Virus record (IMG/VR): IMGVR_UViG_3300044568_004391
Coordinates: 62,001-126,000 of that record
Direction: 5' to 3' (one strand)
Length of the DNA stretch: 64,000 bases
From: a virus
The position numbers were made by a program, and so were the translations under genes. The first letter of the stretch is position 1; each line of letters begins with the position of its first letter. The notes below the pieces were generated by a model. It was not told where the DNA came from. It made no database searches and saw only the letters and a list, made by a program, of their open reading frames with translations. This document shows, piece by piece, positions 7,770-63,178 of this stretch.

Positions 7770-8813
7770 ATGAAAGTAAAATTGGAATACATTTGGTTGG
7801 ATGGTTATGAACCAGAACCAAACCTAAGAAGTAAAGTCAAAGTTGTTGATGCAAAGAGACAGCAAGGAGTTGATCGAGATGTTTTTGGTATTGAACTTAA
7901 AGATTGTCCTGAATGGTCTTTTGATGGATCTTCCACCAATCAAGCGGAAGGTCACTTCTCTGATTGTGTCCTTAAACCTGTTTCCCTTTATCCTAATCCA
8001 CTAAACAAAGGAGTTATACCATCCTACTTTGTGATGTGTGAAGTTTATCTTCCTGATGGAACCCCTCATCCTTCAAATACGAGATCATCTATTGAAACAG
8101 AGGATGAAGATCTTTGGTTCGGTTTTGAACAAGAATATACTCTTGTAAAGGACGGAAGACCTTTGGGTTTCCCAAACAATGGTTATCCCGCTCCACAAGG
8201 AAAATACTACTGTGGTGTAGGTAATGGACAGGTCAACGGAAGAACTTTTGTTGATGAGCATTTGGAGATGTGTGTATACGCAGGGATTGATATTACAGGA
8301 ACCAACGCTGAGGTGATGCTCGGACAATGGGAATATCAGGTCTTCAGTAAGGGGAAGAAAAAAGCAGGTGATGATCTTTGGATCACACGATATATTTTGG
8401 AACAGATGTCCGAGAACTACGGATTTAAAATTGAATTCCACCCCAAACCTGTTCAAGGTGATTGGAATGGATCGGGACTTCACTGTAACTTCTCAAACAA
8501 GAGGATGAGAGAAAATGGTAGTAAGGAATATTTTGAGGGAATCTTCAAACAATTTGAGGATAGACACTGGTTACATATTGAAAACTATGGATCAGACAAC
8601 AACCTTCGTTTGACAGGAAAACACGAAACACAACATATCTCCAAATTCAGTTGGGGTGTATCAAATCGTGGAGCGTCAATCAGAGTTCCATTGAATACTA
8701 CACATAATAATTGGGCGAGTGGGTATTTGGAAGATCGTAGACCTGCTTCTCACGCTGATCCATATAAGATTGTGAAAGTAATTTCAGATTCTTTGGATTT
8801 AGTTGAAGTTTGA
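7770..8813 (+). CDS. glnII: Glutamine synthetase, type II (GSII)
   Basis: Makes glutamine from glutamate, ammonia and ATP. 347 residues, the usual length for the eukaryote-like GSII form. Visible signatures: WSFDGSSTNQAEG near residue 48, GFEQEYTL (metal-binding Glu), GQWEYQ, NGSGLHCN, NLRLTGKHET and EDRRPASHADPY near the C-terminus. All active-site motifs look intact. It stands alone between the transglycosylase and the promoters of the large RNA. GSII is known in some Bacteroidota; in a phage it would be an auxiliary gene for nitrogen supply (inference). Confidence 0.95.
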   Translation: MKVKLEYIWLDGYEPEPNLRSKVKVVDAKRQQGVDRDVFGIELKDCPEWSFDGSSTNQAEGHFSDCVLKPVSLYPNPLNKGVIPSYFVMCEVYLPDGTPHPSNTRSSIETEDEDLWFGFEQEYTLVKDGRPLGFPNNGYPAPQGKYYCGVGNGQVNGRTFVDEHLEMCVYAGIDITGTNAEVMLGQWEYQVFSKGKKKAGDDLWITRYILEQMSENYGFKIEFHPKPVQGDWNGSGLHCNFSNKRMRENGSKEYFEGIFKQFEDRHWLHIENYGSDNNLRLTGKHETQHISKFSWGVSNRGASIRVPLNTTHNNWASGYLEDRRPASHADPYKIVKVISDSLDLVEV

Positions 8814-8815
8814 GC

Positions 8816-8846
8816 TTGACAAACCGAAAAAAAGTTCATACATTTG
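8816..8846 (+). promoter_or_regulatory. Bacteroidota sigma-A-type promoter P1
   Basis: TTG (8816-8818), 20 nt spacer, TACATTTG (8839-8846), matching the Bacteroidota TTTG / TAnnTTTG pattern. The -33 region TTGACAAACCGAAAA is nearly repeated at P2. Confidence 0.75.
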
Positions 8847-8890
8847 TAATCCAAACCGAACGAGGTTAGGGTTTTTTCACGAAAACGATA

Positions 8891-8897
8891 TATTTAT
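8891..8897 (+). promoter_or_regulatory. TATTTAT late-type motif between P1 and P2
   Basis: TATTTAT inside the palindrome GATATATTTATATATC, upstream of the large RNA; the same motif precedes many protein genes here. Confidence 0.4.
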
Positions 8898-8926
8898 ATA
8901 TCACAGAAAAAAATAGGGGATTTCAC

Positions 8927-8957
8927 TTGACAAAACGAAAATTAAGTTGTAGTTTTG
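8927..8957 (+). promoter_or_regulatory. Bacteroidota sigma-A-type promoter P2
   Basis: TTG (8927-8929), 20 nt spacer, TAGTTTTG (8950-8957). It places a transcript start near 8963, at the beginning of the structured RNA. Confidence 0.75.
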
Positions 8958-8962
8958 TCCTC

Positions 8963-9796
8963 TGAAATTAGAGTTCTTTGATTAAAACCTTTTATTGATG
9001 GTTTAAACGGTTGGCGGCTTAGCGTCGTTAGATAACCCCGGCGACGGGAATAAAGGGTCGGAATTCAGATCTAGCAATCTGATTATATGACCGCAGAACA
9101 TTAGGTGTTCTGACAACTAAGCAAATTACCTACGATAGAAACCCTAAGGGCAACTGCTAAGGGGGTTCTATTATCCTGAGTCCGTGGAATATCAGGGTTG
9201 AGGTGGTGACACCAATAGGAAAAGGTAAAGATGACGGTTCGAAACAACCTGCCAGTTGTTTGAGGGCTGAGCATCAGTCTGAGGGGCATCCGATGGAAAA
9301 TTAATCCGACGTTGTCCTGAAAGGCCGTGAGTGGGCAGACTCACAGAGAGTAGTGTGGTATTCCGTGTTCAAAAGATATGGAGTCACACCGACAGCGCTA
9401 CTTTCCATTTCCACATTTGCTAATTTAATACTTAAATTAAGCAAAAGTCTGTCGGCGTTGTAAACGAAAGGTGTCTAAAACTTCAGACCGTGAGGTCAAT
9501 GAAGTCTCAGATAAGACCGCAAGTCTTTCTGAGTTGATTGTGAAAGTTCTAGTAGGTCGGCCAACCTTTAGTGAGTGAAAACTCAATAGAAACGAGTATT
9601 AGTCGAGTGGTTTACAACGATACGAGTGGTTACCGATAGTAACCGACACTGATCTGATATCACGGGCAATCGTGATGGACAAGTTGGCAACCTGTCGTGG
9701 GGTACACCAACGAAAGACAGATCACTCAAGCGTGTAGTCTCAGCGCAAACTTAAAGAATCCCCTTACCTTAACCGTAGTTGGTTAAGGTTTTTTTT
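8963..9796 (+). ncRNA. Large structured RNA (GOLLD/ROOL size class)
   Basis: About 830 nt without a plausible gene, GC-richer than its surroundings, between two promoters and a strong terminator. Local hairpins visible by eye: 9066-9081, 9094-9112 (CAGAACA/TGTTCTG), 9416-9445 (TTTGCTAATTTAA arm), enclosed by CCGACAG 9389-9395 with CTGTCGG 9449-9455, 9486-9497 (GACC-GTGA-GGTC), 9506-9533, 9628-9644 and 9659-9676. GNRA-type loops such as GTGA suggest tertiary contacts. Size, ornate folding and a phage-like setting fit GOLLD best (about 800 nt); ROOL and OLE RNAs are shorter. I see no RNase P, tmRNA, rRNA or group I/II intron hallmark. The family assignment is inference; that it is a structured transcript is well supported. 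Confidence 0.75.
9767..9796 (+). terminator. Terminator of the large RNA
   Basis: CCTTAACC / GGTTAAGG stem, loop GTAGTT, then eight T. Confidence 0.92.
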
Positions 9797-9827
9797 GCCC
9801 TATTGACTCAAAACAAAAAAAGTTGTA

Positions 9828-9834
9828 TATTTAT
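9828..9834 (+). promoter_or_regulatory. TATTTAT motif before gene 9858
   Basis: TATTTAT 23 nt before the ATG. The same stretch also reads TTG-N19-like followed by TATATTTA, so a sigma-A reading is possible. Confidence 0.4.
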
Positions 9835-9857
9835 TTATAGTTAATACATTTTATGAA

Positions 9858-10019
9858 ATGAATAATTTAACTGACGAAGATGAAGACCTCTCCTACATTT
9901 GGGGTGGTGGTAAGAAAATTAAAAAACCCAAGAAAAATCAAAAACCGACTGATGGATTTTGGGAAGATGAGTATTACGAATCGGATCAGAAGAAAGGAAG
10001 AGGTAAAAAAAAGTTTTGA
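9858..10019 (+). CDS. Small charged protein, unknown function
   Basis: 53 residues: an acidic N-terminus (NLTDEDEDLSYIWGGG), a Lys/Pro-rich middle and a basic C-terminus ending KKGRGKKKF. Such charge-segregated small proteins often bind nucleic acid, but no family is recognised. It directly follows the large RNA terminator and has its own upstream TATTTAT motif. The gene is short but the reading frame is clean and the codon use matches its neighbours. Confidence 0.6.
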   Translation: MNNLTDEDEDLSYIWGGGKKIKKPKKNQKPTDGFWEDEYYESDQKKGRGKKKF

Positions 10020-10062: not shown

Positions 10063-10329
10063 ATGACTCAAAAACAAATCTCCATCCTCCATCCTAAACA
10101 CGGATCAATCTTGAGTGAGTCGTTTGTTGACGATGTTCAATTCAAACTTTTCCTCAAGTCCGTCAACGGATGTTTGTCCTTGAAACGAGATCTGACGTTC
10201 TACGATGGTAACCACTTCCTCATACACATCCCGTATGTTGTATTGAAGTCTTCAATCGTTACAACAAAAGTTGAGACAATCACACCTGGAAAGGTTTTGA
10301 TTGAATCGGCTTTGGAAAAGAGCCACTGA
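10063..10329 (+). CDS. Hypothetical protein
   Basis: 88 residues, no recognised domain; predicted alpha/beta with FLIHIPYVVLKSSIV as the most hydrophobic stretch, too polar for a clear membrane segment. It has a good host-type promoter just upstream and a strong terminator 36 nt downstream, so it forms a single-gene unit. The presence of its own host-type promoter suggests early or constitutive expression if this is a phage (inference). Confidence 0.65.
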   Translation: MTQKQISILHPKHGSILSESFVDDVQFKLFLKSVNGCLSLKRDLTFYDGNHFLIHIPYVVLKSSIVTTKVETITPGKVLIESALEKSH

Positions 10330-10844: not shown

Positions 10845-11861
10845 ATGATTAATTTCGCAGACATTATTGTTGATCTTCAGGCGGGTGACACAGGTAAAGG
10901 GAAAGTGGCTCATGCACTTGCAAAAACAAACGACTACACACATGTTATTAGGTATAACGGAGGTGGTAATGCGGGTCACACCGTTTACCATGACGGAGAA
11001 AAAGTAGTAACCCATTTCATACCAGTTGGGGTTCTTTATAACATCCCTTCCATTATTGGACCAGGATGTGTCGTTGATCCAATCAAATTGGAGATGGAAC
11101 TCGATGATTTAACAAAGGTAAATCCAAGAGTTAGAGAATTTCTTTTTATTGATCGTGGAGTCCATATTATAACAGAACAACACAAAGAAGAGGATGGTAA
11201 AGATTTCAAAATCGGAACAACTAAAACAGGAAATGGTCCGGCTTATGTGGATAAGTACAATAGAAGTGGAATCAGATATGAAAATTATGTGACAATCAAC
11301 AATCCTTCCAACAACTACCTTTGTGATATTTATGACATTTTATTTTCTCAAGAGGATGTTAAAATTCTTTTCGAAGGTGCTCAGGGTTTTGAGTTGGATA
11401 TTGATTGGGGTGATTATCCGTTTGTCACATCTTCTCATTGTACGGCGGGTAGTGCTTGTTTGAATGGTGTATCACCCAAATACATCAGAGACATTTATGG
11501 TATTTCAAAAGCATATGTTACTTATGTAGGTGCAAAAGAATTTGAGGGTGGTCTTGATATTTTTCAGAAAATCAGAGAAGTTGGAAATGAATATGGGGCA
11601 ACTACAGGAAGACCAAGACAAGTTAATTGGTTGAATTTAGATAATTTAATCAAAGGATCCAACATCAACGGTGTTACGAAATTAATTATTAATAAAATTG
11701 ATGTATTGGAAAAAATAAACTACTATTGTTTGATTTATTTAGGTGAGGAAATTATTTTTGACAAAAAATTAGAATTCAAAAATTTTATTCACCAAACACT
11801 TATTGAAAAGTGTCCTCTAATTCAAGAAGTAATTTTTAGCTATACACCTTACGAGATATGA
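10845..11861 (+). CDS. Adenylosuccinate synthetase / PurZ-like enzyme
   Basis: 338 residues, about 90 shorter than bacterial PurA and close to phage PurZ length. Motifs: VDLQAGDTGKGK near residue 9, GGGNAGHTVYHDGEK, IGTTKTGNGPAYVDKYNRSG, FEGAQGFELDIDWGDYPFVTSS split across two strands, GATTGRPRQVNW and NKIDVLE. The catalytic Asp of PurA (in GDEGKGK) is kept here as GDTGKGK; from memory, PurZ enzymes that make 2-aminoadenine (base Z) have Ser there. It could thus be a compact PurA or a PurZ-family member with PurA chemistry. No DatZ or MazZ partner gene is in the window. The small gene 11858 overlaps its stop by ATGA. Confidence 0.85.
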   Translation: MINFADIIVDLQAGDTGKGKVAHALAKTNDYTHVIRYNGGGNAGHTVYHDGEKVVTHFIPVGVLYNIPSIIGPGCVVDPIKLEMELDDLTKVNPRVREFLFIDRGVHIITEQHKEEDGKDFKIGTTKTGNGPAYVDKYNRSGIRYENYVTINNPSNNYLCDIYDILFSQEDVKILFEGAQGFELDIDWGDYPFVTSSHCTAGSACLNGVSPKYIRDIYGISKAYVTYVGAKEFEGGLDIFQKIREVGNEYGATTGRPRQVNWLNLDNLIKGSNINGVTKLIINKIDVLEKINYYCLIYLGEEIIFDKKLEFKNFIHQTLIEKCPLIQEVIFSYTPYEI

Positions 11862-12097: not shown

Positions 12098-13501
12098 ATG
12101 AATCGTTTCATCTCTTTTCTTGTTCTGATGTTTATGAGTACTTTTGTGTATTCACAAAAAAACACACCTTTTGGATGTATAACCTTTGGAGAAAATAAAA
12201 ACATTTTACCGATGGGTAGGTTGAAATCCAAATCAACCAATACACCCAAAGAAATCAGATTGGTATTTCACGTTTGTTATACTGACGCGATTCCATTGAG
12301 TGAAATTCCTGTTGAATCAATATATGGTGCGATTGATCAAGCCAATGTAGATTTCGAGGGAACTAACATCAGTTTTGTTTATGCAGGTCATGATTATATC
12401 AATATCCGAGAGTTCGCTTGGCACGACTCATTTGTCTCAGGTCAAGTTTGTTTCCCAACTTATAGAACTCAATCAACAATGATTTCTAACAAATACGCTT
12501 GGGATATTTCAGAGTATTGTAATGTTTATATTATCCCTAAAATGTGTTCCACTATCTTGGGATATGCCTTTATCACATATGGACCTGCAAATAAAGATGA
12601 CGGGGTTTGGGTTAAGACCGAGTCTTTTGGGTATGGACCTTGGCCACACGTAAACCCGAAGTATGTGGAAAACGAAACCTTTAGTCATGAGCTCGGTCAC
12701 TACTGTGGATTGTTTCACGTATTCAATAACACATCGTATTGTGGACAACAAGAGGCAAACATACCTTGTGAATATGAAGGTGATTTTGTATGTGATACTC
12801 CACCCACCAAACTCGCAAGAGGATGTCCTTCCTACCCTGTTGGATCATATTGTCCTGAAGTAAATTACGATGGTGGAGTTCCATATCGTGCGAACAACCA
12901 CATGGACTATTGTCCTGAACAATGTAGAGATGTATTTACTCCAGGTCAGATAGACCGAATGCATAGAATGTTGGACTTCCAAAGATATGAGTTATACACA
13001 GAAGAGCAAGTAACACCCTTCTGTTTGGGTGATTTCGATAAGAACGGAATGATTGGAACTGGTGATCTGTTGATTATATTGTCCCATTATGGTTGTGTGG
13101 AATGTGACTATGAGGAAGGAGATATGAATATGGATGCACTTGTTAATGTTTTGGACTTAAACTTCTTGTTGGCTTTTTGGGGTGATGTTTGTGGTGACGG
13201 GGTAGGACAGATCCAAGCCAAAAGATCAGGACCTCAACCCGAATTAGAAGATCCTTTCGAGATTATCAGTAACTATGATTTTCCTGAACGAGGAACTCCC
13301 ACGAAAGAAAAAGATCGTGAAGAAAAAAAGGAAGAACCTTCTTTTGGTCTTATGAATTTGGTAAAAGAAATTAAAAAAACGGCCCAATTTAAATTGGAAG
13401 AAATTGATGAACTTGATTTGAATACGTTATTTTCTGAATATGGTGTTGATAGTTTGATTGTGAATATCAACGAAGATGAGAAAATTGTGATTGAACGATA
13501 A
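12098..13501 (+). CDS. Secreted M43 (pappalysin-type) metalloprotease with dockerin-like repeats
   Basis: 467 residues. A signal peptide (FISFLVLMFMSTFVYS, then QKN) leads to a zinc protease domain with HELGHYCGLFH near residue 198 and a Met-turn NHMDYC near residue 268, the metzincin/M43 arrangement. After it come two calcium-binding dockerin-like loops (DFDKNGMIGTGDLLIILSHY and DMNMDALVNVLDLNFLLAF). The last 100 residues are a charged tail (EKDREEKKEEPSFG) without a recognisable T9SS signal. It is one of three M43 proteases in the window. A role in degrading host or environmental protein is likely; the specific target is unknown. Confidence 0.9.
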   Translation: MNRFISFLVLMFMSTFVYSQKNTPFGCITFGENKNILPMGRLKSKSTNTPKEIRLVFHVCYTDAIPLSEIPVESIYGAIDQANVDFEGTNISFVYAGHDYINIREFAWHDSFVSGQVCFPTYRTQSTMISNKYAWDISEYCNVYIIPKMCSTILGYAFITYGPANKDDGVWVKTESFGYGPWPHVNPKYVENETFSHELGHYCGLFHVFNNTSYCGQQEANIPCEYEGDFVCDTPPTKLARGCPSYPVGSYCPEVNYDGGVPYRANNHMDYCPEQCRDVFTPGQIDRMHRMLDFQRYELYTEEQVTPFCLGDFDKNGMIGTGDLLIILSHYGCVECDYEEGDMNMDALVNVLDLNFLLAFWGDVCGDGVGQIQAKRSGPQPELEDPFEIISNYDFPERGTPTKEKDREEKKEEPSFGLMNLVKEIKKTAQFKLEEIDELDLNTLFSEYGVDSLIVNINEDEKIVIER

Positions 13502-18286: not shown

Positions 18287-18886
18287 TCATAGTCTAACAA
18301 TTAAAGCACCAACATCCACCATACTTTTTATTTCTTCATTTGTTTTTGTTGATAAATAACTGTTCAAATAAAGTCTTGCACCAACAGATTTAAGATTTCC
18401 AAAGGATTCAATTTGTGTTCCTCTTATGTCCAAATAACCACCTACGGATTGAAGATTTCCAAGGGATTTAATTGGTGTTTTATTTAAATCCAAAGATGCT
18501 CCAACAGTCCTGAGATTTCCAAGGGATTCAATTGGAGTTTCTTCCAAATTCAAATCATCACCAACAGATTGAAGATTTCCAAGAGATTCAATTTGTGAGT
18601 TGTATAGGTTCAAATAACCATCAACCGATATAAGATTTTTGAAGGATTTGATTTCTGTTCCATATGCATTAAAATCACCACTAATAGAAACAAGACCTTC
18701 AAGCCAAGTTAAATCACCTTTATATCCACCCAAATCCAAATCATCATCCAACGACCATCTTGTGATGTTATTTTTTTTGATGAAGTTTTTTAGTCCTTCA
18801 ACTCCATCAGGGAAATAGTGAAGACCAGGTATTACAAATATCTCTTCGGTTTCCTCTTTTAATATTTTTTTGATTAGGTCTTTCAT
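18287..18886 (-). CDS. Leucine-rich-repeat protein, 5-unit paralogue
   Basis: 199 residues. Tag MKDLIKKILKEETEE, conserved domain (HYFPDGVEGLKNFIKKNNIT, then RWSLDDDLDLGGY), then five 20-residue units (for example NLQSVGGYLDIRGTQIES) plus a diverged terminal unit (LYLNSYLSTKTNEEI). Last of three tandem genes read on the minus strand; its ATG shares one base with the stop of the upstream gene (TAATG). The protein may bind other proteins; the tag suggests capsid packaging (inference). Confidence 0.85.
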   Translation of the reverse strand: MKDLIKKILKEETEEIFVIPGLHYFPDGVEGLKNFIKKNNITRWSLDDDLDLGGYKGDLTWLEGLVSISGDFNAYGTEIKSFKNLISVDGYLNLYNSQIESLGNLQSVGDDLNLEETPIESLGNLRTVGASLDLNKTPIKSLGNLQSVGGYLDIRGTQIESFGNLKSVGARLYLNSYLSTKTNEEIKSMVDVGALIVRL

Positions 18887-19545
18887 TATCTAATAATTCT
18901 ACCACCAACATTTATCATACCTCTAATTTCTTCATCTGTATAATTCTTCAAAACGTATTTGTTTAACCACAAATTAGTACCAACATATTGAAGTTTTGGA
19001 AGGGATTCAATTTGTGTTCCTCTTATATCTAAATAATCACCAACCGACTGAAGATTTGGAAGGTCTTTAATTGGTGTTCCCTCCAAATCCAAACTACCAC
19101 CAACCGATTGAAGGTTTCCAAGGTCTTTAATTTGTGTTTTTCTTAAATCCAACCCACCACCAACCGATTGAAGATTTGGAAGGGATTCAATTTCTGTTCC
19201 TCTTAAATGTAAAAAACTACCAACCGATTGAAGATTTGGAAGGGATTTAATTTGTGTGCTTCTTATATCTAAATAACCACCAACAGATTGAAGATTTCCA
19301 AGAAATTTAATTTCTGTCCTTTCCAAATCCAAAAAACCCGTGATCGAAACAAGTCCTTCAATCCAAGTTAAATCATCTCCATATTCACGGAAATCCACAT
19401 CATCATCCAACGACCATCTTTTGATGTTCTTTTTTTGAATGAAGTTTTTTAATCCGTAAATTTCATCAGGAAAAAAACTAAGACTAGGTATTACAAATAC
19501 CTCTTCGGTTTCTTCTTTTAATATTTTTTTGATTAAGTCTTTCAT
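18886..19545 (-). CDS. Leucine-rich-repeat protein, 6-unit paralogue
   Basis: 219 residues, same layout as its neighbours: tag with LKE, conserved domain (FFPDEIYGLKNFIQKKNIK), six 20-residue units and terminal unit (LWLNKYVLKNYTDEEI). Its start overlaps the upstream paralogue stop by ATGA. Nucleotide identity between units is high, so unit gain and loss by slippage or recombination is likely. Confidence 0.85.
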   Translation of the reverse strand: MKDLIKKILKEETEEVFVIPSLSFFPDEIYGLKNFIQKKNIKRWSLDDDVDFREYGDDLTWIEGLVSITGFLDLERTEIKFLGNLQSVGGYLDIRSTQIKSLPNLQSVGSFLHLRGTEIESLPNLQSVGGGLDLRKTQIKDLGNLQSVGGSLDLEGTPIKDLPNLQSVGDYLDIRGTQIESLPKLQYVGTNLWLNKYVLKNYTDEEIRGMINVGGRIIR

Positions 19546-20264
19546 GGTCTTAAAATTCCACCACCAACATTTATTATATTTCTAATTTCTTCATTTGTAT
19601 ATTTTTCTGAAAGGAATTTGTTTAAAAATAAATCATATTTAACCGATTGAAGATTTTCAAAGGATTCAATTTGTGTTCTTCTTATATCTAAAGAACCACC
19701 AACAGATTGGAGTTTTGGAAGGGATTTAATTTTTGTTCCTCCTATAAACAAATTACCACCAACCGATTGAAGGTTTCCAAGGGATTTAACTTGTGTTCCA
19801 GTTAAATCCAAATGTTTACCAACATATTTAAGATTTGGAAGGGATTCTATTTGTGTTCCTCTTGTATCTAAAGACCTACCAACCGATTGAAGATTATCAA
19901 GGGATTTAATTTGTGTGCTTCTTATATCTAAATAACCACCAACCGATTGGAGATTTGGAAGGGATTTAATTTGTGTGCTTTTTATATCTAAATAACCACC
20001 AACCGATTGAAGATTATCAAGGGATTTAATTTTTTTTCCTTCCAAATCCAAATAACCACTAATGGAAACAAGACCTTCAAGCCAAGTTAAATCATCTCCA
20101 TATTCACGGAAATCCAAATCATCATCCAACGACCATCTTTTGATGTTCTTTTTTTGAATGAAGTTTTTTAATCCGTCAATTTCATCAGGAAAAAAACTAA
20201 GACCAGGTATTACAAATATCTCTTCGGTTTCTTCTTTTAATATTTTTTTGATTAAGTCTTTCAT
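19542..20264 (-). CDS. Leucine-rich-repeat protein, 7-unit paralogue
   Basis: 240 residues, first gene of the minus-strand array. Tag with LKE, conserved domain (SFFPDEIDGLKNFIQKKN), seven 20-residue units and a terminal unit (LFLNKFLSEKYTNEEI). The unit consensus, NLxSVGGxLDIxxTxIxSL, has the spacing of short 20-residue bacterial LRRs. A TATTTAT motif lies 8 nt before the ATG and probably drives all three genes. Confidence 0.85.
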   Translation of the reverse strand: MKDLIKKILKEETEEIFVIPGLSFFPDEIDGLKNFIQKKNIKRWSLDDDLDFREYGDDLTWLEGLVSISGYLDLEGKKIKSLDNLQSVGGYLDIKSTQIKSLPNLQSVGGYLDIRSTQIKSLDNLQSVGRSLDTRGTQIESLPNLKYVGKHLDLTGTQVKSLGNLQSVGGNLFIGGTKIKSLPKLQSVGGSLDIRRTQIESFENLQSVKYDLFLNKFLSEKYTNEEIRNIINVGGGILRP

Positions 20265-30540: not shown

Positions 30541-30641
30541 TATATTTATTTGTAAATAATAATTCTATGACACAACGACTAATATTAACAGAAGAAGAAA
30601 AAAGAAACATCCAAAAGATGTATGGTATGATTAATGAACAA
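30541..30641 (+). repeat. Tag cassette, copy 1 (101 bp)
   Basis: Covers the TATTTAT motif, leader, start codon and tag codons; differs from copy 2 (31042-31142) at three of 101 positions. Confidence 0.9.
30543..30549 (+). promoter_or_regulatory. TATTTAT late-type promoter motif
   Basis: TATTTAT ending 17 nt before the ATG at 30567, directly after a terminator. Confidence 0.6.
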
Positions 30642-30980
30642 CCTGATGACCAATTAAAAATGCTTCAAAATGAAGGTTATATTGATGTAACAGATTCTGT
30701 TCATAAAGGCGAATATGTATTAGAAATTCCTGATGGTAAAAACTATAAAGTCAAAGGTGGTGGTTATCAATTTAAGCTTTTAACAGATGATAATAAAGAA
30801 ACAGGTTATCTTTTTTTATCTGAAAATGGAGTAAGAACACCTTCTATGGAGAAAGGTCCATTCTATGTTGAGGATAATGGAAAAATGATTCGTCTTAATC
30901 AAGAATTTATAGGGATTTTAGGTCAAAATGGAAGGATTTTGTATAACCAAAAATTAAATCAAGTTAAAATTGAAAGATAA
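30567..30980 (+). CDS. Tagged hypothetical protein
   Basis: 137 residues. The tag (LTEEEKRNIQKMYGMINE, ending at residue 25 or so) is essentially identical to that of the next gene. After INEQ the two proteins are unrelated. The body (KNYKVKGGGYQFKLLTDDNK) is strand-rich and no family is recognised. Own TATTTAT motif and terminator. Confidence 0.75.
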   Translation: MTQRLILTEEEKRNIQKMYGMINEQPDDQLKMLQNEGYIDVTDSVHKGEYVLEIPDGKNYKVKGGGYQFKLLTDDNKETGYLFLSENGVRTPSMEKGPFYVEDNGKMIRLNQEFIGILGQNGRILYNQKLNQVKIER

Positions 30981-31004
30981 ATTTTTATAAACTATATATT
31001 TAAG

Positions 31005-31031
31005 AACCTCTCCAATACGGGGAGGTTTTTT
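31005..31031 (+). terminator. Rho-independent terminator
   Basis: AACCTCTCC / GGGGAGGTT stem, loop AATAC, T-run. Confidence 0.85.
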
Positions 31032-31041
31032 TGTTTTCAAT

Positions 31042-31142
31042 TATATTTATTTGTAAACAATAATTCTATGGCACAACGACTAATATTAACAGAAGAAGAA
31101 AAGAGAAACATCCAAAAGATGTATGGTATGATTAATGAACAA
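31042..31142 (+). repeat. Tag cassette, copy 2 (101 bp)
   Basis: 97% identical to 30541-30641; similarity stops right after the tag codons. Confidence 0.9.
31044..31050 (+). promoter_or_regulatory. TATTTAT late-type promoter motif
   Basis: TATTTAT ending 17 nt before the ATG at 31068, part of the duplicated cassette. Confidence 0.6.
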
Positions 31143-31469
31143 GAAGAGACCAATTTCGATAAAAATTACTTTATGTCTAAAAAGACGGGAACTGTAACCT
31201 TCGGTTCTCAAGCCATTCCATTAGAAGTTGACGGGATTAAGGTTTCTGACTACAAGACCCAATGGAAAAGAAATTTCAAAATAGAGAATATAGGGGGTAG
31301 AGGATTTCAACCTGGGGTTTTCACATGGACATACGGAGAGGAAGTTCCAACGGGAGTTATGGGTTATAGTACTGATTCTGATGTACGTACATCAGAACCA
31401 GGTATATCAATAAAAGATAGTGCAAATAAAGAAGTTGGCACACTTATTTTTGAGTTACCTTGGGATTAA
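31068..31469 (+). CDS. Tagged hypothetical protein
   Basis: 133 residues. Same tag as the preceding gene (LTEEEKRNIQKMYGMINE) and then an unrelated strand-rich body (TGTVTFGSQAIPLEVDGIKV, GVFTWTYGEEVPTGVMGYST) that could be an Ig-like or beta-sandwich domain. No family recognised. Own TATTTAT motif and terminator. Confidence 0.75.
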   Translation: MAQRLILTEEEKRNIQKMYGMINEQEETNFDKNYFMSKKTGTVTFGSQAIPLEVDGIKVSDYKTQWKRNFKIENIGGRGFQPGVFTWTYGEEVPTGVMGYSTDSDVRTSEPGISIKDSANKEVGTLIFELPWD

Positions 31470-31471
31470 AC

Positions 31472-31499
31472 CCCCTCCCTTATTGGTGAGGGGTTTTTT
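31472..31499 (+). terminator. Rho-independent terminator
   Basis: CCCCTC / GAGGGG stem; nearly the same sequence as the terminator at 30504. Confidence 0.85.
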
Positions 31500-31510
31500 G
31501 TTTTTTATTA

Positions 31511-31517
31511 TATTTAT
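31511..31517 (+). promoter_or_regulatory. TATTTAT motif with expanded leader
   Basis: TATTTAT followed by a tandem TAAAA repeat (about 31521-31542); the ATG at 31560 is 42 nt away instead of the usual 13-19. Confidence 0.4.
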
Positions 31518-31559
31518 ATATAAAATAAAATAAAATAAAATAATTTTAAAATCAATAAA

Positions 31560-31970
31560 ATGAGAAAAGTTAGATTGACGGAATCAGAATTGGTCCGTAT
31601 CATAGAAAGAATTGTAAAAGAAGAATCCTTAACGGGAGGTAGATCAAAACCAGAATTCAAAGGTAGATTGGCTAAATCCAAAAAAGATTTTGGGATGGGA
31701 TGGAGAGATGAATATGACAGCCCATCTGAAGGACCAGGTGAGAGATCAGGTTCGATTGTGAGTTATGAAGATTTTATGCGTTTCGCAGAAGACCACCCCG
31801 ATTTGGCTGAGTTTTATTTTGGTTGGGCCGGTGATGAATCAGGTGAAGTTTTTGACAAATATGGTGGTGTAGATCTATTTAATCCTGAAGAAGATATGGC
31901 AAATCTTGAAGAGATGAAAAGAAAAGTCAGAGTTATGGAAAATAAACTCAAAAGGAAAATGGGAAGATAA
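31560..31970 (+). CDS. Tagged hypothetical protein
   Basis: 136 residues. Tag MRKVRLTESELVRIIERIVK ends in VKEES, the RLTES-type tag common to four genes here. The body is acidic with GWAGDESGEVFDKYGGVDLF and ends in a basic helix (KRKVRVMENKLKRKMGR). Function unknown. The next tagged gene starts 4 nt after its stop. Confidence 0.75.
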   Translation: MRKVRLTESELVRIIERIVKEESLTGGRSKPEFKGRLAKSKKDFGMGWRDEYDSPSEGPGERSGSIVSYEDFMRFAEDHPDLAEFYFGWAGDESGEVFDKYGGVDLFNPEEDMANLEEMKRKVRVMENKLKRKMGR

Positions 31971-31974
31971 CAAA

Positions 31975-32382
31975 ATGAAAAAAGTTGTAAGATTAACGGA
32001 AAATGATTTGATTAGATTAACCAAGAGAGTTCTACTCGAATCGAAAGCTCAAGAGGCGGTAGACACCGCCTTTGAAAAATTTGAATCAGGTCAAAAACCT
32101 CCAGCAGGTATGGTTCAAAATGTAAAAAAATGTTTGGAGAATACACCTCTCAGAAATATTGTTTTGGCTGGGGGAGATGTTGCTCAGTTAATTTTGAGTG
32201 TATTAGCATTGACGTTACTTGTCATGGTTGGTTGGGAAGCAGCATTGGTTGTGGCGGGGATTCATGGGGCACTTAGTATTTTAGAACACACATATAAAAT
32301 AAAAGGTGTAAATGTTTTTGCAAAATCAGAAAAAGATATAAAATTTTTCGTTAATTGTTTACAATCAAAAGGGGTAATTTAA
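31975..32382 (+). CDS. Tagged protein with hydrophobic hairpin
   Basis: 135 residues. Tag KKVVRLTENDLIRLTKRVLL ends in LLES. The body has a long hydrophobic region (VAQLILSVLALTLLVMVGWE, then AALVVAGIHGALSILEH) that could form a two-segment membrane hairpin. A packaged membrane-active protein would be unusual and may suit DNA entry (inference). Terminator follows. Confidence 0.7.
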   Translation: MKKVVRLTENDLIRLTKRVLLESKAQEAVDTAFEKFESGQKPPAGMVQNVKKCLENTPLRNIVLAGGDVAQLILSVLALTLLVMVGWEAALVVAGIHGALSILEHTYKIKGVNVFAKSEKDIKFFVNCLQSKGVI

Positions 32383-34074: not shown

Positions 34075-34422
34075 ATGAAAAAAATAGTTAGACTTACAGA
34101 ATCCGATCTCGTTAAAATTATCGAACGAGTAATCGAAGAGGGAAAGACAGATAAAGGAGTTAAGGAAAAGGATGTTGACGTAAAAATTGAAACATTTCAA
34201 GATTCCATAAAAAACCATCTCAAATCAAAAGATAATGTTACGGTTAAAAAGGTGGGGGATGATTTTGAAATTCATTCTGATGGTGATCATATCGGTCAGG
34301 TTATGTTTAGGAAAGAAGGGATTACAGTAAAAAAAGTTGGAAACAAGTTTGGAAAGAAATTCGATTTCAACGAACTCGGGAATATAAAAAAGGAAATTAA
34401 TCGGATAATAAAAGAAGATTGA
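34075..34422 (+). CDS. Tagged hypothetical protein
   Basis: 115 residues. Tag KKIVRLTESDLVKIIERVIE, ending VIEEG. The body is Lys-rich and strand-rich (TVKKVGDDFEIHSDGDHIGQ repeated in part as VKKVGNKFGKKFDFNEL), a small repeat of one motif. Own TATTTAT motif and terminator. Confidence 0.75.
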   Translation: MKKIVRLTESDLVKIIERVIEEGKTDKGVKEKDVDVKIETFQDSIKNHLKSKDNVTVKKVGDDFEIHSDGDHIGQVMFRKEGITVKKVGNKFGKKFDFNELGNIKKEINRIIKED

Positions 34423-57047: not shown

Positions 57048-57551
57048 ATGCCAAAAGTTATAAAACTTAACGAAAATGATTTAAGAAAAATTGTTGACAG
57101 GGTTATCACCGAATCCAACAAGCACGATGTTAAATGGACCAAAAACTTCAAAAAATATTTTAAACCCAACCAATACGAGCTCGAGGATAGGGATCAAAGA
57201 GAACTTCTTGAACTTATTGATGATATCAGAAGAGAACTCGACCGTTATGAGGATGGTGTTGTAACCATTAAACTCAAGGGTGGTGAATCCAAAACTCCAA
57301 ACGTTGTTAATGTAAGAGGTGAAGATCAAGTTCACCCACCTGGTGCAATGGCAAAGAGAAGATGTCATTGGACTAAGAAGTTCCTTCAAAATCACGGAGG
57401 TGATCTTTTAAGGGGTGTTAATTATGTAACGGACAAGCCTTTTATCAACGGCCCCGATCATGATCCATCTAAGAGAATTAATTCTCCCGAATATTTGGAC
57501 AATCAGTTTGTCGATCTTCTTGTTACCGTCAACGGTAATGTGAGAAGATAA
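57048..57551 (+). CDS. Tagged hypothetical protein
   Basis: 167 residues. Tag KVIKLNENDLRKIVDRVITE, ending ITES. The body has RELLELIDDIRRELDRYEDG, then RRCHWTKKFLQNHGGDLLRG and a basic C-terminus (VNGNVRR). No family recognised. Far from the other tagged genes but with the same tag and motif. Confidence 0.72.
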   Translation: MPKVIKLNENDLRKIVDRVITESNKHDVKWTKNFKKYFKPNQYELEDRDQRELLELIDDIRRELDRYEDGVVTIKLKGGESKTPNVVNVRGEDQVHPPGAMAKRRCHWTKKFLQNHGGDLLRGVNYVTDKPFINGPDHDPSKRINSPEYLDNQFVDLLVTVNGNVRR

Positions 57552-57615: not shown

Positions 57616-59724
57616 ATGAAAAAAATATTTCTTGTATTTTTCTCTTTTATTTCTTTTATTGGTTTTTCGCAGTCAGATCAGTGTGGATTCGATCACATTA
57701 AGATGATGGGTATGTTTGATATTACCGAAAATCACGAAATAACGTATATTGGTAATAGAGATGAAGTTCACACAATTCCTGTTGTTTTTCACGTAATTCA
57801 TTTGGGTGAAGATGAAGGTGTTGGTACAAATATTTCAGATGAACAGATTTTAGATGGATTGAGAATTATCAACGAAGACCTAAGAAAAATTCCAAATTCA
57901 TGGGGTGATGGAATAGGTGTTGATGTTGAAATGGAACTTTGTTTGGCGTCGAGAGACCCTTTGGGAAATCCAACAAATGGAATTACAAGACATGATGGTA
58001 ATATATGGGTGGATTATTCTACAAATGGTATTTCATTCACACCAAACCAAGTAGGTGAACCTGAATTGAATATTAAAAATGCTACAACATGGGATAGAAC
58101 CAAATACCTGAATGTGTGGTTAGTTTCTGAAATTCAAGGAAATGACGGACTGTGGGGTACACAGGGATATGCTTACTATCCAATCCCCAACAATCGTGAC
58201 GGTATTGTTTTATTACACAATGTTATTGGTTCCTTTGGAAATGTCAAACCAACACACAATAGAAGTAGGACTTTTACTCATGAGTTTGGTCATTACTTAG
58301 GTTTGTACCACACATTTGAAAGTTATGAAGATTGTAGTTCTGCGGCTTCAGAAGTGGATTGTGTAACTCAAGGAGATAGAGTTTGTGATACACCACCCAC
58401 CAAAGTGGGTTGGGGTTGTACACCGGCTTGTGTAATCACAAATTCACAATACCAAAACTATATGGATTATAGTGAACAAACTTGTAGAAACACATTTACT
58501 CAAGGACAAAAAGATAGAATGAGGGGTGGTGCAGGAATTATGAATGCTTGGAGAGTTTCTTTATTATCTAGCGATGGTTGTACACCTGTCGAAGGAACCA
58601 ATCTTTCTATTGAAAGTGGTACATATTACCAAAATTGTGGGTTTTCAGGGATCAAACCTGAAGTTAAAATTCAAAACTTGGGGTTAAATCCAATTCATCA
58701 ATTTCAAGTAAGTGCAAGAATTGTTGGTACACCTTACTTTATTGTTAAAAGTTGGACATCTGAAAATCCAATAAACTTATTTGACGTTGTCACAGTTACG
58801 TTCCCTATGGGATCTACAGATTACGGGACAGGAGAAATTATTTATCAAATTTTGGATCAAGATTCCTACATGACTGATAATACCCTTGAAATTATTTACG
58901 AATCATTACCATCGGAAGAATTAACGTTGATTTTGAATCCAGATTTTTTTGCGAACGAAACGACTTGGGAAATGGTAAATATTAATGGTGATATAATTTG
59001 GGAGGGGGGTCCATATAGTACAGGTCCCGATAATCCAATTATCCATATCGATTGTGTCTCGAATGGATGTTATGACTTTACAGTATATGATCAGTTTGGA
59101 GATGGATATGATTTCGGTGGGGATTTTGAGTTGATCAATTCATCAGGTGAAACATTAGCATACGGAGAGGATAATTTCGGTGATGAGGTGACTTTTAACT
59201 TTTGTATAGATGTGCCATTTTTGGAACCCTGTAGTGATATTGGATATAATGGAATTTGTGACGATGATGAGATCGGATTAATTTGGGGTTGTTTAGATCC
59301 GTTGGCGTGTAATTATGATTTTTATGCGAACTTATCAAACGCATCTTGTATTTTTCCGAATGGTATTTACGATTGTTTTGGGAATTGTTTGGTTGATTCA
59401 GATTACGATGGTGTTTGTGACCAATTAGAAATCTTGGGGTGTATAGATCCGATTTCCTGTAATTACGATGAAAATGCAACCGAAGAATCAGAGTGTCAAT
59501 ATCCAATCTTCGGATATTCTTGTGATGGTATACCGTTGACTTCATTGAATACTGTAACAGGTATTAGAGAACTAATTAATTCAAATATCGTTGAAAAAAT
59601 TATTCTATACGATATTCAGGGTAGAGAAATAAACCCTGATAAAATAACATCATCAGGTGTTTACCTAATTAATTTACACTTTAGGGATGGTACAATCAGA
59701 ACTCACAAAGTTCATTTGAACTAA
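57616..59724 (+). CDS. Secreted M43 metalloprotease with T9SS sorting domain
   Basis: 702 residues. Signal peptide (IFLVFFSFISFIGFS), M43 domain with HEFGHYLGLYH near residue 225 and Met-turn NYMDYSEQTC, then beta-sandwich regions and two Cys-bearing loops (GCLDPLACNYDFYA, GCIDPISCNYDENA). The last about 75 residues (IILYDIQGREINPDKITSSG, then VYLINLHFRDG) are a type A T9SS C-terminal sorting domain. So it should be exported through the Bacteroidota type IX system. Own host-type promoter. Confidence 0.92.
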   Translation: MKKIFLVFFSFISFIGFSQSDQCGFDHIKMMGMFDITENHEITYIGNRDEVHTIPVVFHVIHLGEDEGVGTNISDEQILDGLRIINEDLRKIPNSWGDGIGVDVEMELCLASRDPLGNPTNGITRHDGNIWVDYSTNGISFTPNQVGEPELNIKNATTWDRTKYLNVWLVSEIQGNDGLWGTQGYAYYPIPNNRDGIVLLHNVIGSFGNVKPTHNRSRTFTHEFGHYLGLYHTFESYEDCSSAASEVDCVTQGDRVCDTPPTKVGWGCTPACVITNSQYQNYMDYSEQTCRNTFTQGQKDRMRGGAGIMNAWRVSLLSSDGCTPVEGTNLSIESGTYYQNCGFSGIKPEVKIQNLGLNPIHQFQVSARIVGTPYFIVKSWTSENPINLFDVVTVTFPMGSTDYGTGEIIYQILDQDSYMTDNTLEIIYESLPSEELTLILNPDFFANETTWEMVNINGDIIWEGGPYSTGPDNPIIHIDCVSNGCYDFTVYDQFGDGYDFGGDFELINSSGETLAYGEDNFGDEVTFNFCIDVPFLEPCSDIGYNGICDDDEIGLIWGCLDPLACNYDFYANLSNASCIFPNGIYDCFGNCLVDSDYDGVCDQLEILGCIDPISCNYDENATEESECQYPIFGYSCDGIPLTSLNTVTGIRELINSNIVEKIILYDIQGREINPDKITSSGVYLINLHFRDGTIRTHKVHLN

Positions 59725-60735: not shown

Positions 60736-61043
60736 AAAACTTTCCCTTGTTGATTTTGTCAATCTTTTTGTTGTCCTCCTGTGCTGTTACATTGGAAGAA
60801 ATGCAATCAGAACCAAATGATTGGACAATTCAACCTGCATTTGTTTTAGATTGGGATGGTCAAACACCGGTCAACAGGTGGTGTTCAGTTATCGAACTTA
60901 ATAAATTGGACACAACAACGAATGGTGTTCCTTACATCATCAGAGAAGTTCTGGTTCAAGAAGGTGACAGCACTAAAAGAATTTTGGTGATCGAATCTCA
61001 GTTGGATGAAACCTATAAAATTACCAAAGAAATGTTTAGGTGA
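60732..61043 (+). CDS. Lipoprotein, unknown function
   Basis: 103 residues. Lipobox LLSSC at residue 17. The mature part (EMQSEPNDWTIQPAFVLDWD, then RWCSVIELNKLD) is unrecognised. Overlaps the preceding gene by 4 nt and the following GTG start by 4 nt. Confidence 0.7.
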   Translation: MKNFPLLILSIFLLSSCAVTLEEMQSEPNDWTIQPAFVLDWDGQTPVNRWCSVIELNKLDTTTNGVPYIIREVLVQEGDSTKRILVIESQLDETYKITKEMFR

Positions 61044-63178
61044 GAATCATCTTATCTATATTATTTTTAATCTTAGGTGTAAATTTATATTCCCAATGTG
61101 ACGTTATTATCCAACCTGGGACACTCCAAAAGATAGATGTAAACCCTGGTGTTAAGTTCAGTTTCACAATAAAAAATAATGGAACTACACCTTTTCAAAA
61201 TGGGACATTCCATCTTTCTTTTGGGTGGTTGGATTCTCCAATGAATCCTCAATCTGTTTGGAATATGAATTTAAGTACTCCTATTCAACCGAATGGTACA
61301 CTACAAGTAACGTCACCTGTTTTCGATATTCCGGTTCCACAAAACGCAACAGAGTGGCCTTTTTGGGATGAAACCACAGGACCCAACGGTTGGCCAAACC
61401 CTAACTATGGTCCTTTGATGGTTTATTTAAATGGATGTTTTATAAATGCTCAAACCATAAATTCATTCCTCCCTTTGAGTGATGATTGTCCAAATATAAA
61501 TCAGGATCAATTTTGTGATTGTAATTTTGAGCTCTATGATTTCAGGACAGAACCCGAAATGCAATTAGATGTTGTTGTCCATAGTGATTATAATTGTTTT
61601 CCTGTAGGTTTTCCTCCTGGCCCCAATAGTTTTACAATTAACAATCCTGGTATATATAACATGACGATCGGTATAAACAGTTTGTTAGAAGACAACTGTG
61701 GACCATCTCCTGATCAAGGACATACTTATCTTCATTTTACATCATCTTATTTACCTGATTATGTTTTGGGAGATACGATCACTCTCGATTTAGACCAAGC
61801 ATCAAATTATTCATTAATAACATGTCTTCAAGAATCTTATAATCAAGGTAATTTTGATAATTGTTATGAGGTAGTTTTGTGGCAAATAAATAACAGTCTG
61901 AGTTTGATTTCACCAAACACATTCGAAGTAACAGTTGGTGACAATATAATTCGTGTGGATGAAAATTGTCAGACGGTTGTTGATGTTACTGACTTATCTA
62001 TTGATTCCTTTTCTTACGACATAATAGGGTGTGATGTAGGTTCGCCATATGCTGCTATGAACATCACACTATCCAACGAAGGTAATACAACTATAACCAA
62101 TTTCTGTTTGAATTTGGACATTCTTCCTGATGGTATACCTGGTGAACAATATTGTTTTTCTAATTTAAATATTTTACCTGGTCAAAGTTATGTCGTTGAA
62201 GTCAACGGAGGTTCATTATCAAATGGTGTTACTTCTATCTCAATTGAAACACCGAATGACGTAATTGTAACGAATAATACCTTCGTAACTATTATTGATT
62301 TACCTTGTTATGGTTGTACGATAAGTTCAGCAATAAACTACGATCCTTTCGCAACGGTTGATGACGGATCTTGTATTATGCCCGTTCCAGGTTGTTTGGA
62401 TCCTTTGGCGAATAATTATAATCCAAATGCAACGGTTGACGATGGTTCTTGTACTTATGATGTTCTTGGTTGTACCGATCCTTTAGCGAACAACTTCAAT
62501 CCTGATGCAAATACAGATGACGGATCTTGCTTATATGATGTCTTTGGATGTACTGATCCATCGGCAAATAATTATAACCCTAACGCAACTGTTGACGATG
62601 GTTCTTGTACTTACGACCCAATTTTGATTTTCGGATGTACTGACCCATTAGCAAATAACTATGATCCAAATGCCAATACTGATGATGGATCATGTAATTA
62701 TGATATTTTTGGTTGTACGGATCCCGAAGCAAATAACTACAACCCAAATGCGAACATAGAAGATGGATCTTGTACATACGATCCTGAAATTATATTTGGT
62801 TGTACCGATCCAACGGCCCTTAACTTTGATCCATTTGCAAACTCTGACGATGGGACTTGTATTTATGAAATTGATATTTGTGAGGAAGCGGATTTACATA
62901 CATTCGTACCAAATGTTATAACACCAAACAATGACGGATTAAACGATGTTTGGAGAGTGGTTACTCAGTCAGACTGTTGGAGAACTTGGAAAACTCAAAT
63001 CTATAACAGATGGGGTAGTTTGATCTGGGAATCTGAAGACCCCGATGCCGTGTGGAACGCAAGTAATAGTGGAAGTGTCTACTTTGTTTCCGATGGAATT
63101 TATGTGTATACTATTACAGGGGTCGCTTGGAATAACAAACCAATTCAAAAATCAGGTTACGTTACAATAATGAGGTAA
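61040..63178 (+). CDS. Large secreted repeat protein with type B T9SS domain
   Basis: 712 residues from GTG 61040, overlapping the upstream stop. Signal peptide RIILSILFLILGVNLYSQ. Early part is related to the 60100 protein (strand-rich, many Asn and Pro). Residues about 430-610 carry seven copies of a 24-31-residue repeat around GCTDPxANNYNPNA then DDGSC. The C-terminus (VPNVITPNNDGLNDVWRV, IYNRWGSLIWES) is a gliding-motility-type (type B) T9SS sorting domain. Surface or secreted in Bacteroidota. Confidence 0.92.
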   Translation: MRIILSILFLILGVNLYSQCDVIIQPGTLQKIDVNPGVKFSFTIKNNGTTPFQNGTFHLSFGWLDSPMNPQSVWNMNLSTPIQPNGTLQVTSPVFDIPVPQNATEWPFWDETTGPNGWPNPNYGPLMVYLNGCFINAQTINSFLPLSDDCPNINQDQFCDCNFELYDFRTEPEMQLDVVVHSDYNCFPVGFPPGPNSFTINNPGIYNMTIGINSLLEDNCGPSPDQGHTYLHFTSSYLPDYVLGDTITLDLDQASNYSLITCLQESYNQGNFDNCYEVVLWQINNSLSLISPNTFEVTVGDNIIRVDENCQTVVDVTDLSIDSFSYDIIGCDVGSPYAAMNITLSNEGNTTITNFCLNLDILPDGIPGEQYCFSNLNILPGQSYVVEVNGGSLSNGVTSISIETPNDVIVTNNTFVTIIDLPCYGCTISSAINYDPFATVDDGSCIMPVPGCLDPLANNYNPNATVDDGSCTYDVLGCTDPLANNFNPDANTDDGSCLYDVFGCTDPSANNYNPNATVDDGSCTYDPILIFGCTDPLANNYDPNANTDDGSCNYDIFGCTDPEANNYNPNANIEDGSCTYDPEIIFGCTDPTALNFDPFANSDDGTCIYEIDICEEADLHTFVPNVITPNNDGLNDVWRVVTQSDCWRTWKTQIYNRWGSLIWESEDPDAVWNASNSGSVYFVSDGIYVYTITGVAWNNKPIQKSGYVTIMR
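62307..62866 (+). repeat. Seven GCTDP-type coding repeats
   Basis: Repeats of about 75-90 bp encoding GCTDPxANNYxPxA, then DDGSC, with two Cys each. Similar single loops occur in the 57616 protease. Confidence 0.85.

Follow-up and report, generated by a model that had tools for sequence, protein, structure and literature searches.

The window analysed here is a 64-kb stretch of the IMG/VR virus record IMGVR_UViG_3300044568_004391 (151,984 bp). Downstream of a glutamine synthetase gene, it carries a noncoding, highly structured transcription unit of about 835 nt (approximately 8962-9796, + strand), the product of which belongs to the GOLLD family of giant RNAs. The features of the locus, in order, are:

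8816-8846, + strand: upstream promoter, with TTGACA at 8816-8821 and TACATTTG at 8839-8846, about 111 nt before the second promoter
8927-8957, + strand: main promoter, with TTGACA at 8927-8932 and TAGTTTTG at 8950-8957; predicted start at about 8962
8960-8973, + strand: weak hairpin CTCT-GAAATT-AGAG, where relatives have their boxB-like hairpin
8973-8981, + strand: boxA, GTTCTTTGA, named by sequence and position
9013-9361, + strand: GOLLD 5' domain as aligned with 33 homologues; its end overlaps the start of the Rfam match
9346-9746, + strand: GOLLD conserved 3' domain (RF02032 model positions 1-416, 263.9 bits, E = 4.7e-74)
9389-9395, + strand: CCGACAG, 5' strand of a long-range helix enclosing the linker, with compensatory change across 36 homologues
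9403-9440, + strand: linker, short (about 40 nt), A+T-rich, able to form a hairpin and without a tRNA
9449-9455, + strand: CTGTCGG, 3' strand of the long-range helix, with compensatory change across the same number of homologues (36)
9766-9796, + strand: intrinsic terminator, a 10-bp stem (9766-9789) followed by a T-run
10063-10329, + strand: 88-aa protein of unassigned function, conserved downstream of GOLLD

An Rfam 15 scan of all 64 kb of the window identifies GOLLD as the sole match above the gathering score. The RF02032 match spans the whole model and exceeds the gathering score of 150 by 114 bits; judged by its sequence, the stretch is certainly a genuine member of the family. The original prediction had proposed a very large structured RNA of GOLLD or ROOL type. 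The GOLLD assignment stands, on the full-length match and the covariation described below, both of them checks that the prediction had itself proposed, and the ROOL assignment falls, as the models for ROOL, OLE, HEARO, rRNA and introns all fail to match at E ≤ 0.1 within 8801-10000. The predicted coordinates were correct to within a few bases, as was the claim that no gene occupies these roughly 830 nt: the + strand contains no ORF of 60 aa or more from the glutamine synthetase stop codon (8813) to the terminator stem, and the only ORF inside the unit is a spurious one of 62 aa on the minus strand (9101-9289). The stable structure claimed for the RNA is also evident, with a fold energy of -269 kcal/mol compared with -224 ± 6 for dinucleotide shuffles (z = -7.2).

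The report on GOLLD env-38 (PMC12286853) describes these RNAs as a conserved 3' region joined to a second domain, the 5' region, in which conservation is lower. Here, the 5' domain lies outside the Rfam model and aligns across 33 distinct phage relatives. Its consensus contains 83 pairs, 46 of which show compensatory changes, and 98.7% of the alignment cells are able to pair. The covariation score of 0.453 compares with 0.188 for shuffled alignments and at most 0.091 when the pairing partners are slid. The long-range CCGACAG/CTGTCGG pairing noted originally is also confirmed, with compensation throughout: an exact 7-bp complement is found in 36 of 36 homologues examined, in five versions (CCGACAG, CCCGAAG, CTCAGAG, CTCGAAG and CCTGAAG), each with its exact partner. 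These positions are unpaired in the Rfam consensus line, and a chance 8-bp alternative pairing also occurs in the window. In env-38, the linker is described as disordered and located inside the cage (PMC12286853). The strong terminator is present as predicted, and the relatives compared also have a stem and T-run in this position.

GOLLD is phage-borne in this 152-kb virus record, which contains phage lysis-type genes; the carrier is a large uncultivated phage, most likely with a Bacteroidota host. The neighbouring glutamine synthetase has relatives in at least about 600 viral stretches. Fifty records, 46 reached through the glutamine synthetase gene and four through a GOLLD pattern, were tested, and GOLLD scores above the curated threshold in 19 of them. 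Sequence patterns drawn from the two domains retrieve at least 119, 116 and 112 stretches, in overlapping sets, and a profile search places GOLLD in all told 204 of the viral loci then collected. The window-type 5' domain is present in 141 of these, and the other 63, which match in the 3' domain only, mostly have another 5' type. A blastn search of 50,697 phage records with three GOLLD queries gave no match, and two further GOLLD patterns returned only members of the same phage group, or nothing. Twelve pattern matches in a bacterial genome collection were discarded, none being confirmed by Rfam. GOLLD was absent from 142 sampled Actinomycetota and Bacteroidota genomes, in a search that had no positive control.

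The tandem host-type promoters of the original prediction are recognisable as two promoters of Bacteroidota type. The TAnnTTTG element sits at -12 to -5 in Flavobacterium (PMC9723704), and transcription is therefore predicted to start near 8962. The leaders of relatives were compared in 78 dereplicated GOLLD loci, collected by the 3'-domain pattern. TAnnTTTG occurs 10-50 nt before boxA in 54 of the 78, with a correctly spaced TTG in 52 of these 54; a second TAnnTTTG lies upstream in 28 of the 54 (4.7 expected), nearly always 80-110 nt away. The nine-base GTTCTTTGA element (Y/R allowed) is found near the 5' end of the RNA in 70 of the 78 loci, compared with 0.8 expected from shuffles that keep base composition only; the loci share ancestry despite dereplication, so these counts are not independent events. 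It usually follows directly after the TTGAC...TAnnTTTG promoter, the spacing between the two varies, and it is retained before unrelated GOLLD 5' domains.

Relatives with a long spacer also place a hairpin between promoter and boxA. A stem of at least 5 bp is present in 42 of 44 such loci, compared with 8% of shuffles, with 18 compensated cells versus 5 in shuffles. This boxB-like hairpin is strong and covarying in the relatives, but weak in the window, which counts against our preferred explanation. The 8960-8973 hairpin is doubtful in the phage of the window because it lies partly upstream of the predicted start.

The boxA of the window, downstream of its promoter, is identical to the 9-mer found in the rRNA leaders of Bacteroidota, the presumed host group. 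Among 18 Bacteroidota genomes with a leader longer than 100 nt, 11 carry the same 9-mer, at 82-174 nt before the 16S rRNA; a further two carry GTTCTTTGG in this leader, and one carries GTTCTTTAA. One Bacteroidota 16S leader (L325/L332) presents, in order, TTGACA, TAAGTTTG, a hairpin and boxA. In rRNA leaders, boxA binds NusB and S10 (PMC4807359, PMC10250234). The shared layout of promoter, hairpin and boxA, as in L325, would also be expected had the phage simply captured a strong host rRNA-type promoter region in which boxA is incidental for GOLLD. We regard this as very improbable, since boxA persists in 70 of the 78 loci, which are divergent and differ in its spacing, and the preceding hairpin carries compensatory changes.

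Strong phage promoters away from GOLLD mostly lack boxA. Among the fetched phage loci, boxA follows within 45 nt in 61 of 120 strong TTGAC-TAnnTTTG promoters near GOLLD, a set in which those without boxA include the upstream tandem promoters, versus 4 of 70 elsewhere; one of these four resembles a GOLLD cut by the contig end. In the record of the window, a promoter combined with boxA occurs five times, twice inside ORFs. The remaining three stand before stable RNAs: GOLLD, the tRNA-Met/Thr pair, and 160 nt of unannotated sequence leading to tRNA-Thr/Leu. More broadly, the phage loci contain 111 leading tRNA or tmRNA genes, and boxA occurs within 150 nt before 13 of them (0.2 expected from the same composition-only shuffles). 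The promoter control argues that shared inheritance is not the whole reason for the conservation of boxA, and so does the reappearance of boxA in front of different 5' domains and of tRNA and tmRNA genes.

Two side observations concern these elements. The boxA-tRNA composite outside the window (L011:15769-15940, - strand: promoter and boxA, about 160 nt unannotated, then tRNA-Thr/Leu) may be a further small noncoding RNA; it matches no Rfam family, and its folding energy is unexceptional (z = -1.5). boxA precedes tmRNA genes in L342, L348, L255 and L276, and a tRNA gene in L012.

The position of the element also bears on its function. In some loci boxA occupies the extreme 5' end, and in some relatives it starts only 1-2 nt from the predicted start, which counts against the preferred explanation; in the minimum-energy fold of the window it forms a 9-bp helix with the trailer that precedes the terminator. 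Both observations would suit a structural or cleavage element at the 5' end of the RNA in place of a Nus-factor site, its likeness to rRNA leaders reflecting a shared processing step. The boxA-trailer helix was rejected as a general feature because it is not retained in close relatives: the trailer complement is lost in L108, L111 and others. boxA itself is kept before unrelated 5' domains, tRNA and tmRNA genes, and on balance a structural or processing role is unlikely.

We conclude firmly that the GOLLD units of this phage group start with host-type rRNA leader elements. The RNA adds a member to a known family; what is new is the leader, which the original prediction had overlooked. The published GOLLD accounts that we examined, as far as their available text goes, do not mention an rRNA-type leader, so priority is uncertain.

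GOLLD cages rank with the largest known assemblies built of RNA alone. The rRNA-type leader suggests a route by which an untranslated RNA of this length is produced and folded. We consider it likely that this GOLLD gene, from a phage whose host is probably a Bacteroidota bacterium, is transcribed by way of the host NusB-S10 complex of rRNA type, and that its product forms cages. The host NusB-S10 would bind boxA as it emerges from RNA polymerase and convert the enzyme to an rRNA-type antitermination complex, which could then cross some 800 nt of untranslated sequence without being terminated by Rho, and may also aid folding of the RNA. We infer this action of the Nus complex from what boxA is known to do and from its second use, at CRISPR arrays. 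The element binds NusB-S10 and, in reporters, works against Rho (PMC4807359), and the NusB-S10 complex protects noncoding CRISPR arrays (cited in PMC12691694). For E. coli rRNA, the Nus complex may serve maturation more than antitermination (PMC4807359), a point against the proposed mechanism.

The finished RNA would assemble into a homo-oligomeric cage like that of env-38, as expected from its membership of the GOLLD family. The earlier suggestion that the RNA is packaged or acts late in infection finds no support: its promoters belong to the host sigma-A class and bear no late signature. As a guess, the cage could have a role independent of the late phase, its RNA being made by unmodified host polymerase, for example in holding or shielding a host or phage component.

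The closest known system is GOLLD env-38, a 14-mer nanocage held by specific kissing loops and A-minor bridges (Kretsch et al. 2025, PMC12286853). The two RNAs share the 3' domain, a length of about 835 nt, a phage source, a separate 5' domain and a short linker at the same place. The RNA of the window differs in having its own 5' domain subtype, no tRNA in the window and an rRNA-type leader. With rRNA operon leaders of Bacteroidota and E. coli, the locus shares the promoter type, the boxA 9-mer and the tandem arrangement of promoters, and its relatives share the order promoter-hairpin-boxA and, in some, a tRNA in the unit; the GOLLD leader, however, drives a phage noncoding RNA, and the hairpin of the window is weak. 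The boxA of CRISPR arrays and lambda nut is similarly reused to protect a long RNA, untranslated or phage-encoded, but the RNA is a different one and no N-like protein was identified here. ROOL, according to the literature, is likewise a giant cage-forming phage RNA, but has no sequence or structure match at this locus. An abundant noncoding RNA of about 800 nt is reported for Vibrio phage ICP1; this RNA (L411:14098-15108, - strand) matches neither GOLLD nor ROOL, and no boxA was seen.

The same leader could act on the host. Strong transcription of lambda nut RNA is reported to titrate Nus factors and lower rRNA expression (PMC4807359), and the GOLLD of a Lactobacillus prophage becomes more abundant during lysis (PMC12286853), which would be in keeping with the boxA transcript being an abundant decoy that ties up NusB-S10 and lowers host rRNA synthesis. 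A single boxA per 800-nt folded RNA would be a costly decoy, and the conserved sequence lies mostly elsewhere; we give this idea little credence. Returning to antitermination as the preferred reading, it is possible, with the balance leaning against it, that the unit imitates an rRNA operon as a whole, with tandem host promoters, a boxB-like hairpin, boxA, a giant RNA and, in some cases, a tRNA. The host machine for rRNA transcription and folding would then be captured to make and assemble the cage, and competition for NusB-S10 may also curb the synthesis of host ribosomes.

The shared leader names a specific host machine for GOLLD synthesis and folding, and its nine-base element is a mutable target. 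It also indicates the host group for testing, and suggests a wider phage reuse of rRNA antitermination for stable RNAs, including GOLLD, tRNA and tmRNA genes.

GOLLD RNAs often have tRNA genes nearby. No tRNA is found in the window; 13 lie at the far end of the record, on the other strand. In many relatives, a tRNA-Met adjoins GOLLD, as described for env-38. It starts about 10 nt after the 3' domain in L236, L255, L256, L342 and others, and in some relatives no terminator is apparent between the two.

The 88-aa protein downstream is present in all 16 GOLLD-bearing records searched and in none of the five that lack GOLLD, records that share phylogeny; in a wider set of loci it follows GOLLD in 93 of 165. 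It yields a confident α/β model (pLDDT 88) with no convincing fold match in the PDB; among viral proteins, the one it matches best comes from a phage and is uncharacterised. It is a possible, putative partner of GOLLD.

Elsewhere in the window, the phage encodes metabolic enzymes on the + strand: PEP carboxykinase (874-2355), glutamine synthetase (7770-8813) and adenylosuccinate synthetase (10845-11861). Two peptidase M43 (pappalysin-type) proteins and a CHU_C protein are found at 12098-13501, 57616-59724 and 61040-63178 (+ strand); CHU_C is a type IX secretion signal domain, as if for export by a Bacteroidota host. An N-terminal motif resembling LTExDLxRIIxRVIxE recurs in many small proteins, and the paralogues of one run start with MKDLIKKILKEETEE (examples at 30567-32382, 34075-34422 and 57048-57551 on the + strand and 18287-20264 on the - strand). 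Such shared N-terminal motifs could be a targeting or packaging tag.
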